DNA of 38,199 nt. Source: Deferribacterota bacterium (GTDB lineage Bacteria; Chrysiogenota; Deferribacteres; Deferribacterales; UBA228). The stretch spans positions 1 to 38,199 of the forward strand of contig JAXHVM010000002.1 of NCBI GenBank assembly GCA_034189185.1, given 5' to 3'. The stretch's first letter is position 1, and the number at the start of each line of letters is the position of its first letter. Both the position numbers and the translations under genes were made by a program. The notes beneath the pieces are model-generated. The model was not told the origin of the DNA. It ran no database searches and was given only the letters and a program-made list of their open reading frames with translations. Of the stretch, positions 6,092 through 14,294 are shown in pieces.

Positions 6092-6223
6092 ATATTAGTT
6101 TCTCCTAAGCTTAAAAATTATTCTATTATTTCATCTAGAATTCATATTGATAAAATCAATAATATATTATATTATCATCTTGACAATGAGTAATTATTCG
6201 TTAAAAAATATTTTTTATAAATT

Positions 6224-6297
<74 letters not shown>

Positions 6298-7076
6298 TTT
6301 ATATTAATTTTTCAGTTATTTTATGTTAAATTTGATATAATTTATCATGTCTCTTGTGAACACAAAAGAAACTAAAATAAATGCAAATGAGTAGTTATGG
6401 TTTTTCCAATATATCAAAATAATTTTTAGGCAACCTTAACATTGAAAAAATTTAGACATAAAAATCACAAAAACTAGATATAAACTTCTATTTATACCAT
6501 CTTTATTTAATACGTTTATAAATTAATTTTTAAATAATAGATTGTATTAAAAATTATCTCTTTATCAGTTTTATGTATATTTATATTACAGAATATTCAA
6601 GAGTGCAAAATTCTCTATCATTTAAATTTAATGTGTATAGCTGATTTTAGATTCCAATTAGACCTAATTCGACAATTTATAAATTATGTATGTAATTTTT
6701 ATAACTATTTCTCTCTTTAATATTATTTATAATATAAAACCCAAAAGGAATTTAAAATAATTTAAAGATACTTTGTTTTAGAATTAATAGATTACAGATG
6801 TTTATATTCAGCTATTCTTAAAATATCAACTAATAATGTTTAATAGAAAATCAATCATCATCTTCAATAAACTATAGATTTAAGAATTCATCTACTATAA
6901 GATGATATTTGAAACTAAGTTCGTATTTTCAAAATTTATCTTACGAATTTTAATTAATTATTTGACTTCAATTAAAAAATTAAATATAATGGTGTTAGTA
7001 ATTCTAAAAAATAGTCTAATGTTTAACGAATTACTTGATAAGTATAATTATATTTTAGAAAAAGGAGGATTTGTAT
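6298..7076. other. Gene-free AT-rich interval upstream of acyl-CoA operon
   Basis: About 780 bases with no convincing coding region on either strand. It is extremely AT-rich and full of stop codons. The only supported elements are the promoter at 6962-6990 and the ribosome site at 7061-7068 near its right end. I found no copy of the tRNA 3' end, no transposase remnant and no clear stem-loop. The single longer reading frame here (from 6902) lacks a ribosome site and runs into the dehydrogenase gene out of frame, so I do not call it. Confidence 0.6.
6962..6990 (+). promoter_or_regulatory. Sigma-70-type promoter of acyl-CoA operon
   Basis: TTGACT (6962-6967) and a perfect TATAAT (6985-6990) are separated by exactly 17 bases, an almost ideal housekeeping promoter. 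Transcription would start near 6997, giving a leader of about 80 bases before the dehydrogenase ATG at 7077. No operator-like inverted repeat is evident beside it. Confidence 0.75.
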
Positions 7077-7844
7077 ATGGAAGTAAAAGGAAGCACTTTT
7101 ATTGTAACAGGTGGCGCCTCTGGATTAGGAGAAGCTACGGTCCGAAGTATCGTGGAAAAAGGTGGCAGGGCTGCCATTTTTGACGTACAAGATGATAAAG
7201 GTAGTAAACTTGCCAAAGAACTTTCAGACAGCACAATATACTGCCACACTGACGTAACTAATGAGGCTCAGGTTCAAGAGAGCATCCAAAAGACATTGGA
7301 TAGTTGCGGAAGTATAAACGGACTGGTAAACTGTGCAGGAATAGCAATAGCTGAAAGGACTGTGAGCAAAAAAGGTCCTATGCTTCTAGATTCTTTCAAC
7401 AAGGTAATACAGGTAAACCTAGTGGGAACATTCAACGTAATCCGTCTTGCAGCAGCTCAAATGATGAACAACACCCCTAATGCTGACGAAGAGCGTGGTG
7501 TTATCATAAACACAGCATCTGTTGCCGCATTTGAAGGCCAAATAGGCCAAGTACCGTACTCAGCATCAAAAGCAGGAATAGTGGGAATGACACTCCCTCT
7601 TGCTAGAGAATTTGCAAGAAGCGGCATCCGAGTTGTCACAATTGCACCTGGACTTTTTGACACTCCCTTATTCTCCTTGCTTCCTGAAAATGCAAGGAAA
7701 TCCCTTGAAGCCCAGCTGCCTTTTCCTGCTAGGTTCGGCCGGCCAAGCGAATACGCTCTCATGGTACAGTGTATTATTGCCAACCCTGTGCTGAACGGGG
7801 AAACCATCCGTCTTGACTCAGCAATACGCATGCAGCCAAAATAG
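7077..7844 (+). CDS. HSD10-like short-chain 3-hydroxyacyl-CoA dehydrogenase
   Basis: NAD-dependent SDR (255 aa) strongly resembling type-2 3-hydroxyacyl-CoA dehydrogenase (HSD17B10), which oxidises 3-hydroxyacyl-CoA and 2-methyl-3-hydroxyacyl-CoA to 3-oxoacyl-CoA. The Rossmann motif VTGGASGLG is at residues 10-18, D36 suggests NAD preference, and LVNCAG is present. The catalytic set is S148, Y161 and K165 within VIINTASVAAFEGQIG and YSASKAG. The C terminus LNGETIRLDSAIRMQP is nearly diagnostic of HSD10. ATG 7077 is chosen because AAAGGAGG lies 8 bases upstream; an in-frame TTG at 7071 is less likely. It is first in the operon. G+C is high (31 of 60 bases at 7681-7740) against about 30% in the rest of the window. 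Confidence 0.92.
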   Translation: MEVKGSTFIVTGGASGLGEATVRSIVEKGGRAAIFDVQDDKGSKLAKELSDSTIYCHTDVTNEAQVQESIQKTLDSCGSINGLVNCAGIAIAERTVSKKGPMLLDSFNKVIQVNLVGTFNVIRLAAAQMMNNTPNADEERGVIINTASVAAFEGQIGQVPYSASKAGIVGMTLPLAREFARSGIRVVTIAPGLFDTPLFSLLPENARKSLEAQLPFPARFGRPSEYALMVQCIIANPVLNGETIRLDSAIRMQPK

Positions 7845-7872
7845 AAAAATCTAAATAAAAAAGGAGATAATA

Positions 7873-8658
7873 ATGACAGAGTATAAAAATATAATATATA
7901 ATAAAAAGGATAACATTGCCACTATAACCCTTAATAGACCTAATGTGCTAAATGCGTTAAATTTTGTATTACTGTCAGAGATACGTGATGCTATCCTTGA
8001 TGCTGAGGGGGATGATAACATCAAAGTCATTGTATTGACTGGTTCTGGCGATAAGGCTTTCTCAGCTGGTGCTGATATCCCTGAAATACTAAAGTTAAGC
8101 CCCATAGAAGCAAAGAATCATGCTTTATCAATCCATGATGTTACCAAACATATGGAGGGAATCAAGAAGCCTATAATAGCCAAAATAAACGGACTTTGCC
8201 TTGGCGGTGGGAATGAGATAGCCATGGCCTGTGACTTCAGAATCGCCTCTGATAACGCAATGTTTGGCCAACCTGAAGTTAATCTTGGTGTTATTCCCGG
8301 CGCTGGAGGAACTCAAAGGCTTACAAGACTTATAGGCAGGACAAAGGCTATGGAAATTGATATGTTAGGCGACATGATTGATGCCAACGAAGCTTACAGT
8401 ATTGGACTATTAAACAAGGTTGTTCCAGCTGACAATTTGGACAGAGCTGTGGATGAGTTTATACAAAAACTTTTGTCAAAAAGCTCTGTCATTCTAGAAA
8501 TAATAAAACTTGCAATAAATAAAGGAATAGAGATGGATCTGGATAAAGCCCTATATTATGAGGCTGAGTGTTTTGGCTCTGCAGCATCAACTGAGGATTT
8601 TAAAGAAGGATTAAGAGCGTTTCAGGAGAAAAGAAAAGCTCAATTTAAAGGGAAATAA
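7873..8658 (+). CDS. Enoyl-CoA hydratase (crotonase family)
   Basis: Crotonase-fold protein (261 aa) that should add water to 2-enoyl-CoA or dehydrate 3-hydroxyacyl-CoA. The oxyanion-hole segment AFSAGADI (about residues 62-69) and GLCLGGGNEIAMACD are intact. Both catalytic acids of true hydratases are present: E115 in GGGNE and E135 in GQPEVNLGVIPGAGGTQRL. That favours a hydratase over a mere crotonase relative. It follows the dehydrogenase by 28 bases with an AAGGAGA ribosome site. It would interconvert enoyl- and 3-hydroxyacyl-CoA for the dehydrogenase; the substrate chain cannot be read from sequence. A methylglutaconyl-CoA-type substrate is conceivable given the HMGS-like neighbour. Confidence 0.92.
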   Translation: MTEYKNIIYNKKDNIATITLNRPNVLNALNFVLLSEIRDAILDAEGDDNIKVIVLTGSGDKAFSAGADIPEILKLSPIEAKNHALSIHDVTKHMEGIKKPIIAKINGLCLGGGNEIAMACDFRIASDNAMFGQPEVNLGVIPGAGGTQRLTRLIGRTKAMEIDMLGDMIDANEAYSIGLLNKVVPADNLDRAVDEFIQKLLSKSSVILEIIKLAINKGIEMDLDKALYYEAECFGSAASTEDFKEGLRAFQEKRKAQFKGK

Positions 8659-8670
8659 AAAGGTAGAATA

Positions 8671-8895
8671 ATTAAAAAGAAGAGTTGCTTAAACTGTAAA
8701 TATTACATGTTAGGGGAAAAAGAAGAAAGGAATAGAATTGCTTTTGATTTTTGCGTTAAAACTAAAAAAAATCTACCAACAGCTGCATTTTCCTATAATG
8801 ATGTTTGTTGTGGAAATACAAGATGTTTTAATGTAGCAGCCTTTCGTTGTTTAGAGGAAATCGCGGAAGTCTGTAAATATTATGAGGTGAAATAA
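8671..8895 (+). CDS. Small Cys-rich protein of unknown function
   Basis: I do not recognise this protein. From the first ATG (8707) it has 62 residues, but the frame stays open upstream to a stop at 8656, adding IKKKSCLNCKYY. The extension supplies a CxxC pair, bringing the total to eight Cys: CLNC, one C in DFCVK, CC in VCCGN, then single C in TRCF, FRCL and VCKYY. The ATG at 8707 lacks a ribosome site, whereas AAAGGT lies before ATA/ATT codons at 8668-8673, so a non-standard start is possible; I set the start at ATT 8671. The Cys spacing suggests a zinc or iron-sulphur site. The stop overlaps the next gene's ATG by one base, implying coupling. Base composition is low (17 and 18 G+C in the two lines from 8701), unlike its neighbours. 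Confidence 0.55.
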   Translation: MKKKSCLNCKYYMLGEKEERNRIAFDFCVKTKKNLPTAAFSYNDVCCGNTRCFNVAAFRCLEEIAEVCKYYEVK

Positions 8896-10352
8896 TGGCA
8901 GGAATAATTTCTTATGGCAGTTATGTGCCACGTTACCGGTTAAACCGCAACCTGATATACCAGGCTATGGGCTGGATGAATCCTGCAAACATTCTAAATG
9001 CAAGCGGCGAGAAAGCGGTTGCAAATTTTGACGAAGATTCAATCACCATGGCTGTGGCAGCCAGTATGAACGCCTTGAGGGATATGGACCGTCAAAGTGT
9101 AGAAGGTGTATATTTTGCATCAACTACAATGCCTTACAAAGAAAGGCTTAATGCGGGGATTATAGTAGCTGCTCTTGGCTTAAACGATCAGATAAGAGCT
9201 GCTGATTTTTCTGGGGGCATAAAGTGCGGAACTACAGCCTTCCTTGCAGCCCTTGAAGGCGTGGAATCAAAGAGAGTAAACAATATTGTTGTAACTGCAT
9301 CGGATACCAGGCTGGGCAAACCAGCTTCCGCTCAGGAGCTGATCTTTGGGGATGCAGGTGCTTCAGTAATTATTGGTACTGATAATGTAATTGCTGAAGC
9401 AAAAGATTCCTATTCTGTAACCTACGATTTTGTTGATCATTTCAGGGGAGAATTTGCCAGGTATGATCGGCAGTGGGAAGATAGGTGGATACGCGATCTT
9501 GGATATATGGATATTTTACCCGAGGCTGTTGAAGGTCTTTTAAAAAAAACAGGTCTTAAGATATCTGACTTTACAAAAATAATCTACCCCTGCCACTATA
9601 GTGGAGCAAGAAAGGCCATTAATAAGAAACTTGGCATTTCGTCTGAGACAGAACAAGACAACCTTCAACAGCAAGTGGGAGAGACTGGAAGCCCCCACAC
9701 ATTACTTATGCTGACAGGCGCTCTTGAAAATTCCTCTCCAGGAGATAAGATTCTACTTGTTAGCTTTGGCTCTGGTTGTGATGCCATTTACCTTGAGGTA
9801 ACAGAAAATATAAAGAACCTTCCAAAAAGATATGGCCTTTCAAGAAGCCTCTCCAATAGAGCTGAGCTTAACAACTATACCAAGTACCTTGTCTGGCGGG
9901 ATACCCTTCCTGCGGATGCAGGACTTCGTTCCGAAGAAGACAAGTGGACCCGATGGTCTCAGCTCTGGAGAATGAGGCGTGAAATCCTCGGGCTGTGGGG
10001 AGTAAGATGCAAAAAGTGTGGAACAGTTCAATACCCAACACAGAGTGTTTGTGTTAATCCAAAATGCGGCGCAATAGGTGAAATGGAGCCCTACTGTTTT
10101 TCGGATAAAGTAGGCCATATAGTGAGCTTTACCGGAGACAACCTTGCTGCCTCACTTAATCCACCTGCCATTTACGGCCAGGTGATATTTGAGAATGGAG
10201 GTAAATACATGTTTGATTTTACAGACTGCGACCTAGAAAGCCTTTCAACCGGAATGAGTGTTGAGATGAGCTTCAGGCGGAAGTACCGGGACTATAAAAG
10301 GGATATTTCTGGTTATTTCTGGAAAGCAGTGCCAATCAATAAGGAGGTATAA
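8895..10352 (+). CDS. HMG-CoA-synthase-like protein fused to DUF35 domain
   Basis: Residues 1 to about 320 form a thiolase-fold synthase of the archaeal HMG-CoA synthase type. They show GIISYGSYVPRYRL, the acyl-accepting Cys C111 in GGIKCGTTAF, H234 in YPCHYSG, and GETGSPHTLLMLTGALE. Residues from about 365 on form a DUF35 unit: a zinc ribbon (C372, C375, C386, C391) followed by an OB fold (IVSFTGDNLAASLNPPAIYGQVIFENGG). In archaea, synthase and DUF35 protein are separate subunits of a complex with thiolase; here they are fused (485 aa). The position that holds the catalytic Glu in archaeal enzymes (SES before HPY) appears to be T77 in ASTTMPY, from remembered family sequence. So whether it makes HMG-CoA is uncertain. 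An AGGTGA ribosome site precedes ATG 8895. Confidence 0.85.
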   Translation: MAGIISYGSYVPRYRLNRNLIYQAMGWMNPANILNASGEKAVANFDEDSITMAVAASMNALRDMDRQSVEGVYFASTTMPYKERLNAGIIVAALGLNDQIRAADFSGGIKCGTTAFLAALEGVESKRVNNIVVTASDTRLGKPASAQELIFGDAGASVIIGTDNVIAEAKDSYSVTYDFVDHFRGEFARYDRQWEDRWIRDLGYMDILPEAVEGLLKKTGLKISDFTKIIYPCHYSGARKAINKKLGISSETEQDNLQQQVGETGSPHTLLMLTGALENSSPGDKILLVSFGSGCDAIYLEVTENIKNLPKRYGLSRSLSNRAELNNYTKYLVWRDTLPADAGLRSEEDKWTRWSQLWRMRREILGLWGVRCKKCGTVQYPTQSVCVNPKCGAIGEMEPYCFSDKVGHIVSFTGDNLAASLNPPAIYGQVIFENGGKYMFDFTDCDLESLSTGMSVEMSFRRKYRDYKRDISGYFWKAVPINKEV

Positions 10353-10354
10353 TT

Positions 10355-11560
10355 ATGGCTGATGGTATTAAAGATAAGGTTGCAATTCTGGGAATGGGAT
10401 GTACAAAGTTTGGGGAGCGATGGGAATCAAGCGAACAGGATTTAATACTTGAATCCTTTATTGAATGCATAGAAGACGCGGGCATTGAAAAAAAAGACAT
10501 CCAGGCTGCTTATTTCGGAACACACATAGACGAGATAAATGTGGGAAAGGGTGGTAACCCCCTAGCAGAAACACTCCATCTTCCTTATATACCTGTTACA
10601 AGAACAGAAAATTACTGTGCAACAGCTACTGAAGCCCTAAGAGCTGCATGTTATTCTGTTGCAGCCGGTGCTTACGATATTGTGCTAGCACTTGGAGCTG
10701 AAAAGCTAAAGGATACAGGCTACGGTGGTCTCCCCGAAGGAGCAGCCTTCGGCACTGAAATGCTCATGCGGGGAGCAAATGCAACAGCACCAGGTTTGTT
10801 TGCTCAACTAGCCACCGCATATGCCGCCAAGCATAAAATTCCAATGGATAAGTTAAAAGATGCTATGGCCCATATATCTGAGAAAAGTCATGCAAACGGG
10901 GCGCTTAATCCTAAGGCTCACTTGCGTAAAGCGGTAACCGCTGAGCAGATTAAAGCAGCACCCATGATTGCTTACCCTTTGGGGCTTTTTGACTGCTGCG
11001 GAGTAAGTGATGGTTCTGCAGCAGCTATTGTAACCACACCAGAAATTGCAAAAAGCCTTAAGAAAAACCAGGGGATAATTACTATCAAAGCCCTACAAAT
11101 AGCTGTGAGCTCAGGTGAAGAGGCGCTTTACACCGAATGGGACAATGCACATCTTGTTACTACAAGAGTAGCCGCCTCAAAAGCCTATAAAGAGGCGGGA
11201 ATAAAAAACCCGCGTGAGGAAGTCAGCATGATGGAAGTACATGACTGTTTTTCCATCACTGAGCTCATTACAATGGAAGATCTCCACATATCACCCAAAG
11301 GTGGAGCTTATGATGATGTTATGAGTGGGTTCTACGATCTTGACGGCTACATCCCCTGCCAGGTGGACGGCGGGCTTAAGTGCTTCGGTCACCCCATAGG
11401 TGCGTCCGGACTAAGGATGCTTTATGCAATATATGAACAACTCCTCGAACGAGTACCCGAAGAGAGAAAGGTTAAGCGGCTGAAGTACGGGCTTACGCAT
11501 AACTTAGGCGGTGCACCAATGAGAAATGTTGTTTCTGTTGCCATAATTGGAAGAGAATAA
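10355..11560 (+). CDS. SCP2-type thiolase (acetyl-CoA acetyltransferase family)
   Basis: Thiolase-superfamily enzyme (401 aa) of the SCP2/archaeal subtype, which condenses or cleaves 3-oxoacyl-CoA. C88 in ENYCATATEALRAA is the nucleophile, H296 sits in MMEVHDCFSITE, and H346 in CFGHPIGASGLR. The second Cys of classical thiolases is replaced by THNLGGAPMRN, as in DUF35-partnered thiolases. In archaea such proteins form a complex with HMG-CoA synthase and DUF35; the benzoylsuccinyl-CoA thiolase BbsAB also pairs a thiolase with a DUF35 subunit. It starts 3 bases after the fusion gene with AAGGAGGT upstream. Its 3' part is very G+C-rich (38 of 60 bases at 11341-11400). It ends the operon. Confidence 0.9.
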   Translation: MADGIKDKVAILGMGCTKFGERWESSEQDLILESFIECIEDAGIEKKDIQAAYFGTHIDEINVGKGGNPLAETLHLPYIPVTRTENYCATATEALRAACYSVAAGAYDIVLALGAEKLKDTGYGGLPEGAAFGTEMLMRGANATAPGLFAQLATAYAAKHKIPMDKLKDAMAHISEKSHANGALNPKAHLRKAVTAEQIKAAPMIAYPLGLFDCCGVSDGSAAAIVTTPEIAKSLKKNQGIITIKALQIAVSSGEEALYTEWDNAHLVTTRVAASKAYKEAGIKNPREEVSMMEVHDCFSITELITMEDLHISPKGGAYDDVMSGFYDLDGYIPCQVDGGLKCFGHPIGASGLRMLYAIYEQLLERVPEERKVKRLKYGLTHNLGGAPMRNVVSVAIIGRE

Positions 11561-12029
11561 GGCCATTAATATCACCTAAGCTTAAAAGCTGTGTCGTGAA
11601 TGCTAGGATCATGGGCCTTTTAGAGTGATTATCTTGTAAGAATGCATATGAGTTCTTAGGGCCCATCATCCTATTCTTTTGAATTACCGTTAAACCCTAT
11701 AGTGTAGATTATAAAATAAAGACATTAATAAGGTCAGAAGTCAAATTCTAAAACAGAATTTATTCCTATAATTTTGAACAACTAAAGATATACCAGAATA
11801 AAGATTCTGCTTTTTAGTTTGCCGGGGATAAAAATTTCAATAAATTTTATTGCTAACTAAGAAAAACTTATAAAAGAATACATCAATAACTGATAAAATT
11901 TATATTTAGTGACACAAAAAGTATAATTTTGAGTTTTGAACACAGCTATCCTTTTGATGCCTCAGAGCCCTCCTTTATTTTGCTTGCTACTATAGCTGAG
12001 TGGCTAGTTGATAATTACATACTAATAAT
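11561..12029. other. Intergenic interval between convergent operons
   Basis: About 470 bases separating the thiolase gene from the convergently transcribed synthase at 12030. It contains the nested inverted repeat and otherwise AT-rich DNA returning to genome-like composition. A short open stretch on the minus strand near 11950-12010 could be a remnant of a lost gene but is too short to identify. No transposase or tRNA fragment is visible. Confidence 0.55.
11604..11673. repeat. Nested inverted repeat downstream of thiolase gene
   Basis: A 14-base outer stem (TAGGATCATGGGCC at 11604-11617 with GGCCCATCATCCTA at 11660-11673, one mismatch) encloses about 42 bases. Inside is a second stem, TAAGAA (11637-11642) with TTCTTA (11653-11658). 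It starts 43 bases after the thiolase stop, so it may stabilise or terminate the operon transcript, although no T run follows. A small element end or a structured RNA is an alternative. Confidence 0.6.
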
Positions 12030-13244
12030 TTATTTATCAGTAAATTGTAATGTTTCATAATGCTTTTTTACTTTTGCAAAAGCATCTAACGCCCTTTCAA
12101 GTTGTTCTTCAGTATGAGTAGCCATCACACTTGTTCTAAGCAAAGATCTACCAGGTGGAACAGCAGGTGGAACTACTGGATTTACAAATATCCCAAGTTC
12201 TTCTAGATGTTTGCATATTTCATATGTTTTTTCTTCGTCTCCAATAATCACAGGCACTATAGGTGTAGAACTTTTACCTATATCGTAACCCAAACTTTTT
12301 AAACCCTCCAACCAAAATTCTGTATTTTTCCACAATCTTTCTCTTCTTTCAGGCTCATTATCAATAATTTCAAAAGCTTTTTTTGCGGCAGCGACAAGAG
12401 CAGGTGGTAAACTTGCACTAAAAAGCATTGATCTACCCACATGTTTAATAAATTCAATAACTTCTTTATTTGATGCAATAAAACCACCAATAGTTGCTAG
12501 TGACTTGCTAAATGTTCCCATTATAATATCTGCCTCATCCATTAAATTATAGTATTCTGCAACACCACGGCCCCCATCACCTAATACTCCTATACCATGT
12601 GCATCATCAACCATAACCCTAGTAGAGTATTTCTTAGCTAATGAGATTATAGATGGCAAATCTGCCAAATCACCCTCCATGCTAAAAACGCCATCAACAA
12701 TTATCAATTTCTCTCTGTTTATATTACAATGTAATAATAATTCAAGGGCACGCATATCATTGTGAGGATATCTTTTAAAATCGTTTTGCGCTAGCTTACA
12801 TCCATCTATAATACTCGCATGATCATATTTATCTAATATTGCCAGTGGACGGCTATCCAAAGGATTGCCATTTAGTAAAGCCTGTAAAGCTCCTAAATTC
12901 GCTTGCATTCCAGTTGCAAAAACTAGAGCTGCCTCTTTAGAAAAAAAGTTGGCTATTGTAGCCTCTAATTCTTCATGCAGCTCAGTAGATCCATTGAGCA
13001 ACCTGCTACCAGCGCATCCAGTTCCATAAGTCTTTATTGCATTAATCGCTGCTTCTTTAACCATTTCATTCTCTGTTAAACCCAAATAATTGTTTGACCC
13101 TAACATAATAAATTTCTTACCATTAATAACAACCTCGGGCCCTTGTATTGAAGACAACTTCCTATAGTAAAAATATTTATTTGCCTTTTTTAATTCCTCA
13201 ACTTTGTAACTAAATTGATAACATTTTTTAAATATATCTCCCAT
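12030..13244 (-). CDS. Serine palmitoyltransferase-like alpha-oxoamine synthase
   Basis: PLP enzyme of the alpha-oxoamine synthase family, which condenses an amino acid with an acyl thioester and releases CO2. Family members include serine palmitoyltransferase (SPT), BioF and KBL. Motifs: GSNNYLGL (residues 49-56), GTGCAGSRLLNGSTELHEELE, DKYDHASIIDGC, DDAHGIGVLG with D213/H216, and the PLP lysine K247 in GTFSKSLATIGG. The stretches RRERLWKN and FVNPVVPPAVPPGRSLLRTSVMATHT match bacterial SPT better than BioF or KBL, from remembered sequences. At 404 aa the length fits. It begins one base after the epimerase stop, with AGGTGG upstream, so the two form an operon. A long-chain 3-ketosphinganine-type product is plausible; BioF or an alkylketone role is the alternative. 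Confidence 0.85.
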   Translation of the reverse strand: MGDIFKKCYQFSYKVEELKKANKYFYYRKLSSIQGPEVVINGKKFIMLGSNNYLGLTENEMVKEAAINAIKTYGTGCAGSRLLNGSTELHEELEATIANFFSKEAALVFATGMQANLGALQALLNGNPLDSRPLAILDKYDHASIIDGCKLAQNDFKRYPHNDMRALELLLHCNINREKLIIVDGVFSMEGDLADLPSIISLAKKYSTRVMVDDAHGIGVLGDGGRGVAEYYNLMDEADIIMGTFSKSLATIGGFIASNKEVIEFIKHVGRSMLFSASLPPALVAAAKKAFEIIDNEPERRERLWKNTEFWLEGLKSLGYDIGKSSTPIVPVIIGDEEKTYEICKHLEELGIFVNPVVPPAVPPGRSLLRTSVMATHTEEQLERALDAFAKVKKHYETLQFTDK

Positions 13245-13245
13245 A

Positions 13246-14208
13246 TCACAACCACCTATTTGATTTATACCATTCTAATGTTAAATCTAAGCCTTTGTCT
13301 AAATCATAGACTGGATTATACCCTATAATATTTTTTAAATCGCTAATATCACAGAACCAACTTTTTTTAAATATTTCTTTTATTTTGTCAATAGTTAAAA
13401 TTGAAGGTTTTTTTCTAAAGTAGTTTAATAGTGTATTAACTGCTGCAGCAACGTAAACAAAAAATTTTGGAATATAAACAAACCTTGGCTTAATATCCAT
13501 TTTTTTAGAAAGAGTCTTTACAACATCATCCCATAAATATTTTTTCCCGTCTGAAGCTATGACAATACCCCTAATATTATTCTCTTTCTCCAATAATAGC
13601 AATAATATATTAACTAAATCAACTATAAATATAAAGGAATAAAAACTATTTTTATTCAAAATAGGGCCATAGCCATTTTTTACAAATTTAAAATATTTTA
13701 ACAATTCCCTTTCACCAGGGCCATAAACAGCTGTTGGTCTAACAATAATAATTGGAAAGTTTGCACTATATTTCAATAAATGATATTCAGCCAATAATTT
13801 ACTTTTAGCATAGTGTGTTTTTGGATTCTCAGTTGTATCAAAAGAAATAATCTCTTCTTCACCCCCATTAATAGCGAGAGTAGATAAAAAAAAGAAACCC
13901 TTCAACTTATTTTTCTGCTTTAAAATATTGCGTACAAGATTAACAGTGCCAATGTAATTAACATCATAGAATTCTCTATAATTTTTTGCCTTAACTACCC
14001 CTGCAATGTGATAAACATAGTCAACTTCTGGCAATTTCAAATTACTATCCGTTAAATCCCCTTTTACAATTTCTACAGTTTCATTATGTGTTTCTAATTT
14101 TGAGGGATCTCTCACTAAGGCATACAATTTGTACCCTTTAGGTTGCAATGCCTCCAATAGATTGCTACCTATAAACCCACTAGCACCTGTTATAAGTATT
14201 CTCTTCAA
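13246..14208 (-). CDS. NAD-dependent epimerase/dehydratase-family protein, CerR-like
   Basis: Extended SDR protein (320 aa). The dinucleotide motif GASGFIG is at residues 8-14, and HIAGVVKAKNYREFYDVNYIGTVNLV follows. The catalytic pair Y133/K137 is in THYAKSKLLAE, and IIVRPTAVYGPGE is typical of the family. The start codon is TTG at 14208, with AAGGA 8 bases upstream. Because it is followed at once by the SPT-like gene, it resembles CerR, the epimerase-family ceramide reductase described beside spt in Caulobacter. On this reading it would reduce the 3-oxo group of the sphingoid product. The sequence alone cannot exclude a sugar-nucleotide or sterol-type substrate. Confidence 0.8.
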   Translation of the reverse strand: MKRILITGASGFIGSNLLEALQPKGYKLYALVRDPSKLETHNETVEIVKGDLTDSNLKLPEVDYVYHIAGVVKAKNYREFYDVNYIGTVNLVRNILKQKNKLKGFFFLSTLAINGGEEEIISFDTTENPKTHYAKSKLLAEYHLLKYSANFPIIIVRPTAVYGPGERELLKYFKFVKNGYGPILNKNSFYSFIFIVDLVNILLLLLEKENNIRGIVIASDGKKYLWDDVVKTLSKKMDIKPRFVYIPKFFVYVAAAVNTLLNYFRKKPSILTIDKIKEIFKKSWFCDISDLKNIIGYNPVYDLDKGLDLTLEWYKSNRWL

Positions 14209-14294
14209 ATTTATATCCTTAAATTAATTATTTACAAATATTTTAAATTATATATAATATTAGCTTATTATCAATAGTATATTTTTGTTGCCCA

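Follow-up and report, generated by a model that had tools for sequence, protein, structure and literature searches.

A G+C-rich block of acyl-CoA genes in an AT-rich window

A run of acyl-CoA genes stands out by its base composition in the 38,199-nt stretch of Deferribacterota DNA analysed here (contig JAXHVM010000002.1, hereafter the window), raising the questions of where these genes came from, how long ago they arrived and which reactions their products would carry out together. Five open frames, all on the plus strand, constitute the block (7077-11560), and the features discussed below are as follows:

6223-6298, tRNA-Arg(TCT), upstream of the block
6962..6990, plus strand, sigma-70-like promoter TTGACT-N17-TATAAT, a consensus match only (11/12)
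7077..7844, plus strand, HSD10-like dehydrogenase (PF00106), with its ATG at 7077 behind AAAGGAGG
7873..8658, plus strand, crotonase-fold enoyl-CoA hydratase (PF00378)
8671..8895, plus strand, small Cys-rich orphan ORF of about 73-74 aa, with a possible ATT start at 8671
8895..10352, plus strand, HMGS-like/DUF35 fusion, HMGS-like at residues ~1-340 and zinc-ribbon/OB (DUF35/ChsH2-like) at ~357-482
10355..11560, plus strand, SCP2-type thiolase (PF22691; NF004810, 648.6 bits versus a cut-off of 403)
about 11606-11672, plus strand, long-loop inverted repeat after the thiolase gene, a weak candidate for the transcription end

An earlier, sequence-only reading had described four of the five genes as G+C-rich, and its line counts (31, 27, 38 and 18 of 60) were reproduced exactly. 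The G+C content is 42.8% in the block versus 31.0% in the rest of the window, and lies beyond the range of just 27.3-33.4% determined in 495 same-sized windows that exclude the block. By gene, 45.6% (dehydrogenase), 38.2% (hydratase), 44.1% (HMGS-DUF35) and 45.8% (thiolase) were determined, with GC3 values of 0.32-0.40 for these four large genes versus 0.20-0.27 for the 29 other genes of the window. The same four are foreign in codon usage too, their fit to the window falling below that of native genes by 4.6 SD in the hydratase, the least deviating, and by 10 SD in the dehydrogenase, the most deviating. The sliding G+C and codon-usage check that had been proposed therefore sets the block apart from the window, and both of its flanks are made up of AT-rich native genes. 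The genes are closely spaced and preceded by good ribosome sites, and the stop codon of the Cys-rich ORF runs into the ATG of the fusion gene (TAATG), so that co-transcription of the five genes is likely.

The borders of the block agree in part with what had been claimed for them. The upstream DNA (6299-7076) is indeed AT-rich (18.8% G+C) with no evident gene. The supposedly near-ideal promoter does match 11 of 12 consensus positions, its 3′ edge lying 86 nt ahead of the first ATG, but promoter-like matches in the region number 22 versus a shuffled expectation of 17.2 ± 5.3, i.e. there is no excess. Likewise, the terminal inverted repeat exists, but has a loop of ~40 nt and lacks a T-run, and the intrinsic-terminator scan called none at this site; the segment 11561-11700 folds at -33.7 kcal/mol (z -1.67). 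A link between acquisition and the tRNA-Arg gene, such as a tRNA-guided insertion or a tRNA-integrated genomic island, found no support, as the 21-mer of the tRNA 3′ end occurs only once in the window and no integrase was recognised among the window ORFs. A direct repeat, TC(T/A)CCTAAGCTTAAAA, identical at 15 of 16 positions, brackets the tRNA and the block (6101-6116 and 11572-11587), and may have arisen by chance at such composition.

Dehydrogenase, hydratase and a small Cys-rich ORF

The gene identities that the sequence-only reading had assigned were found correct by profile and solved-relative matches. The dehydrogenase, whose Ser/Tyr/Lys motif region is present, has 3-hydroxyacyl-CoA dehydrogenases type II as its best solved relatives, and the hydratase has short-chain enoyl-CoA hydratases. 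The nearest relatives found for the dehydrogenase are 73-74% identical and belong to the Desulfobacterales genomes G040 and G041, where they adjoin a different thiolase, with a separate DUF35 gene visible in G041. No close source of the hydratase was found in the order or in the Desulfobacterota genomes searched, the best matches having 43-49% identity in the latter and 47% within the order.

The Cys-rich ORF differs in composition from the foreign block in which it is embedded, having 30.6% G+C and native-like codon usage. No ATG, GTG or TTG precedes its first Cys codon, leaving ATT or ATA as possible starts. It matched no family in Pfam or NCBIfam, searches of plasmids and of 51 genomes of the phylum yielded no convincing homologue, and in 15 relatives no counterpart precedes the HMGS gene; its single-sequence fold (pLDDT 54) suggested no family either. 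Nothing was found in support of a glycyl-radical-enzyme small subunit. The ORF may not be translated.

An HMGS-like/DUF35 fusion family lacking the catalytic triad

The N-terminal part of the fusion protein aligns to archaeal HMGS and PhlA, and its C-terminus to DUF35. Its AlphaFold model (pTM 0.86) has PhlA and archaeal HMGS as best PDB matches, with target TM-scores of 0.89 to 6ESQ_I and 0.87 to PhlA, indicating an HMGS fold. At the positions where Cys, Glu and His are expected for catalysis, the alignment places Ile109, Thr77 and Pro232, and none of the three is kept in any of 51 fusion proteins, the second fusion of the same genome included. The NCBIfam HMGS scores also fall below the curated cut-offs (NF003274, 228.3 versus 244; TIGR00748, 173.6 versus 353). 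In the C-terminal domain, for which PF12172 scores above and PF01796 slightly under the cut-off, the zinc ligands Cys372/375/386/391 are kept in all 50 sequences covering the site. Judged by both residues and scores, the fusion protein is not an HMG-CoA synthase, although the loss of the triad, as read from the alignment, could hide another chemistry; most likely it is a catalytically dead scaffold for the neighbouring thiolase.

Because the residue test was negative, HMGS annotation should be avoided for the fused subfamily, which occurs in Desulfobacterota, Myxococcota and Actinomycetota and whose members match HMG-CoA synthase models and so are easily mistaken for mevalonate-type enzymes. 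No description of a fused HMGS-like/DUF35 family was found in open-licence papers, and the combination of fusion, dead triad and β-oxidation setting appears to be a variant not described in that literature. It offers a case, open to testing, of a former enzyme serving catabolism as a scaffold.

Related genes were seen on two other contigs of this genome. Contig C5 (1043-3681) encodes the second dead fusion (32-34% identical) together with a thiolase (42%), near a 3-hydroxyacyl-CoA dehydrogenase, an acyl-CoA dehydrogenase, AMP-ligases and a hydratase. Contig C88 (4524-7301) carries an acyl-CoA dehydrogenase, then a canonical HMGS paralogue without the DUF35 fusion, in which Cys, Glu and His are all kept, and then a thiolase truncated where the contig ends.

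The partner thiolase and its gene neighbourhoods

The thiolase has its catalytic residues intact, namely Cys88, His296 in an HDCF motif and His346 of the GHP motif, and Cys88, HDCF and His346 are conserved in 43 of 43 sequences. HDCF is the SCP2-thiolase signature, with aldolases carrying YDCY or YDHF instead (PMC12329534). The protein is hence classed as an SCP2-type thiolase on sequence grounds, and thiolysis of a 3-oxoacyl-CoA is predicted. Its gene lies directly 3′ of the HMGS-like gene in all 47 loci uncut by a contig end, and among relatives the fusion-thiolase pair is often accompanied by acyl-CoA dehydrogenases, SDR proteins, hydratases, AMP-ligases and TetR regulators. The same functional enzyme order recurs in Desulfosarcina alkanivorans, where SDR10, ECH, thiolase and DUF35 genes form one run (4226547-4229919), but there the thiolase is only 35% identical and the DUF35 protein is separate. 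A further D. alkanivorans locus (L101, ~10335-14279), in a large β-oxidation region, encodes a fusion and a thiolase that are less closely related (48% and 65%), and an SDR match falls between the two.

Predicted role in β-oxidation and alternative functions

We consider the block, with a probability of about two in three, an old horizontally gained catabolic operon for the lower half of β-oxidation, with the dead HMGS-like/DUF35 protein as a scaffold holding the thiolase. In the proposed sequence of steps, the hydratase would hydrate an enoyl-CoA, the HSD10-like dehydrogenase would oxidise the resulting 3-hydroxyacyl-CoA, and the thiolase would split the 3-oxoacyl-CoA with CoA, while the fusion protein would hold the thiolase and shape its acyl-CoA channel, a role proposed by analogy with that of PhlA and PhlB for PhlC and of HMGS and DUF35 in the archaeal complex. 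The operon itself contains no acyl-CoA dehydrogenase or CoA ligase. Thiolases can run in the condensing direction too; we infer both the formation of the complex and the direction of flux. SCP2-type thiolases point to 2-methyl-branched substrates. Since HSD10 has a known role in isoleucine breakdown (PMC10218265), the dehydrogenase and the thiolase type together suggest a substrate of this kind. The substrate may be bulky or 2-methyl-branched, in the latter case with propionyl-CoA as one product, which methylmalonyl-CoA mutase, present in the genome, could handle.

The sequence-only reading had also offered a synthetic route from acetyl-CoA through acetoacetyl-CoA and an HMG-like to a glutaconyl-like CoA. 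Here the thiolase would make acetoacetyl-CoA from acetyl-CoA, the HMGS-like protein would convert it to HMG-CoA and the hydratase would yield the glutaconyl-like CoA. The operon does share all three modules with the archaeal thiolase/HMGS/DUF35 complex (6ESQ), to which the present thiolase is nearest by sequence (5.9e-56) and the HMGS-like fold close in structure (rmsd 2.2-2.4 Å), and an NCBIfam HMGS model matches the fusion. But here DUF35 is fused and the setting is not that of mevalonate: the score of 228 stays under the curated 244, the homologous loci have catabolic neighbours, and a separate canonical HMGS is available on contig C88. Above all, the route is contradicted because the HMGS-like family lacks the Cys/Glu/His triad throughout, and we regard it as very improbable.

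Instead of a thiolase, the complex could be an acyltransferase with a non-CoA acceptor, like PhlABC or MucABC. PhlABC (PpATase, the Pseudomonas diacetylphloroglucinol acyltransferase) likewise combines an inactive HMGS-like subunit without Cys and Glu with a DUF35 protein and a thiolase-fold partner that is active, and its PhlA and PhlB are reported to be required for complex assembly and not directly for acyl transfer (PMC6392133). Among solved folds, that of PhlA comes closest to the HMGS-like domain, and a dead HMGS-like subunit (by alignment, with the fold by model) beside an active thiolase-fold subunit is likewise found here, from which we infer a PhlABC-like physical complex of the three modules. 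In our operon, however, the HMGS-like and DUF35 parts form one polypeptide, the thiolase has the HDCF motif and is far less close to PhlC (2.5e-21) than to the 6ESQ thiolase, and no polyketide synthase or other polyketide gene lies nearby in the window; instead, the hydratase and dehydrogenase of the operon and the acyl-CoA dehydrogenases of homologous loci suit β-oxidation, making an acyltransferase unlikely. Somewhat less so, though still improbable, is a thiolase for aryl- or alicyclic 3-oxoacyl-CoA in the breakdown of aromatics or hydrocarbons, as several homologues occur in hydrocarbon-degrading Desulfobacterales. BbsAB works in a β-oxidation setting, and BbsA, a DUF35 protein, has no HMGS-like domain. 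This benzoylsuccinyl-CoA thiolase shares with our pair the partnership of an SCP2-type thiolase with a zinc-ribbon/OB protein (PMC12329534), but the present thiolase scores only 132 on the BbsB equivalog model (cut-off 750), placing it outside BbsAB. Moreover, no PF02901 glycyl-radical enzyme was matched in the genome, and therefore no fumarate-addition activation of hydrocarbons was found. Of the BbsAB-type, β-oxidation-like cleavage of a branched acyl-CoA suggested earlier, the cleavage is favoured by the gene neighbourhoods and the HDCF motif, but the proteins do not belong to BbsAB, and the branched substrate is only a conjecture.

Extending β-oxidation with a scaffolded thiolase beyond this locus, we tentatively raise the possibility, doubtful at present, that anaerobic thiolase complexes of this kind make up a widespread class so far undescribed. 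In these, a dead HMGS fused to a zinc-ribbon/OB domain would form an acyl-CoA channel dedicated to the breakdown of branched or bulky acids, and the complex of this operon would have a Cys-rich small subunit in addition.

An old transfer with Desulfobacterales affinity

The best relatives of the fusion (83%, 82% and 81% identity) and of the thiolase (87%) belong to Desulfobacterales, which are sulfate-reducing bacteria, and in trees both proteins nest inside this order (support 100/99 for HMGS, 100/100 for the thiolase). Among 51 genomes of the phylum, the two genes were found in this genome only (match at E 1e-60), the second match of the search being its own paralogue. Composition, phylum-wide absence and trees agree on the horizontal gain that had been proposed, so the gain of the core genes, with Desulfobacterales affinity, is well supported at the sequence level.

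A recent date, as also proposed, is contradicted by third codon positions. Their identity to the nearest relatives is ~0.40 for fusion and thiolase, and where the nearest relative has the same residue, A/T-ward outnumber G/C-ward differences by 151:52 in the fusion and 129:29 in the thiolase. The GC3 of the two genes (0.38-0.40) lies between that of the relatives (0.61-0.78) and that of the native genes. Such intermediate GC3 and A/T-ward shift indicate partial amelioration, by which the transfer is old and contamination unlikely. A contaminant or a chimeric assembly involving a co-sampled Desulfobacterales genome might be suspected from the fragmented assembly (312 contigs) and the high-G+C block within a single contig, but is hardly credible against these third-position data, the AT-rich native genes on both sides and the scattered position of the operon genes in the nearest relatives. 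The locus thus presents a clear old inter-phylum transfer of a catabolic module.

As the dehydrogenase relatives lie beside another thiolase and the hydratase has no close source, the operon is probably a mosaic assembled from parts. The sister genome G001 (64% complete) has no match to the gene flanking the block downstream. On its contig C56, an SCP2-type thiolase adjoins an SDR, and a gene resembling, by eye, 4-hydroxybutyryl-CoA dehydratase lies close by.
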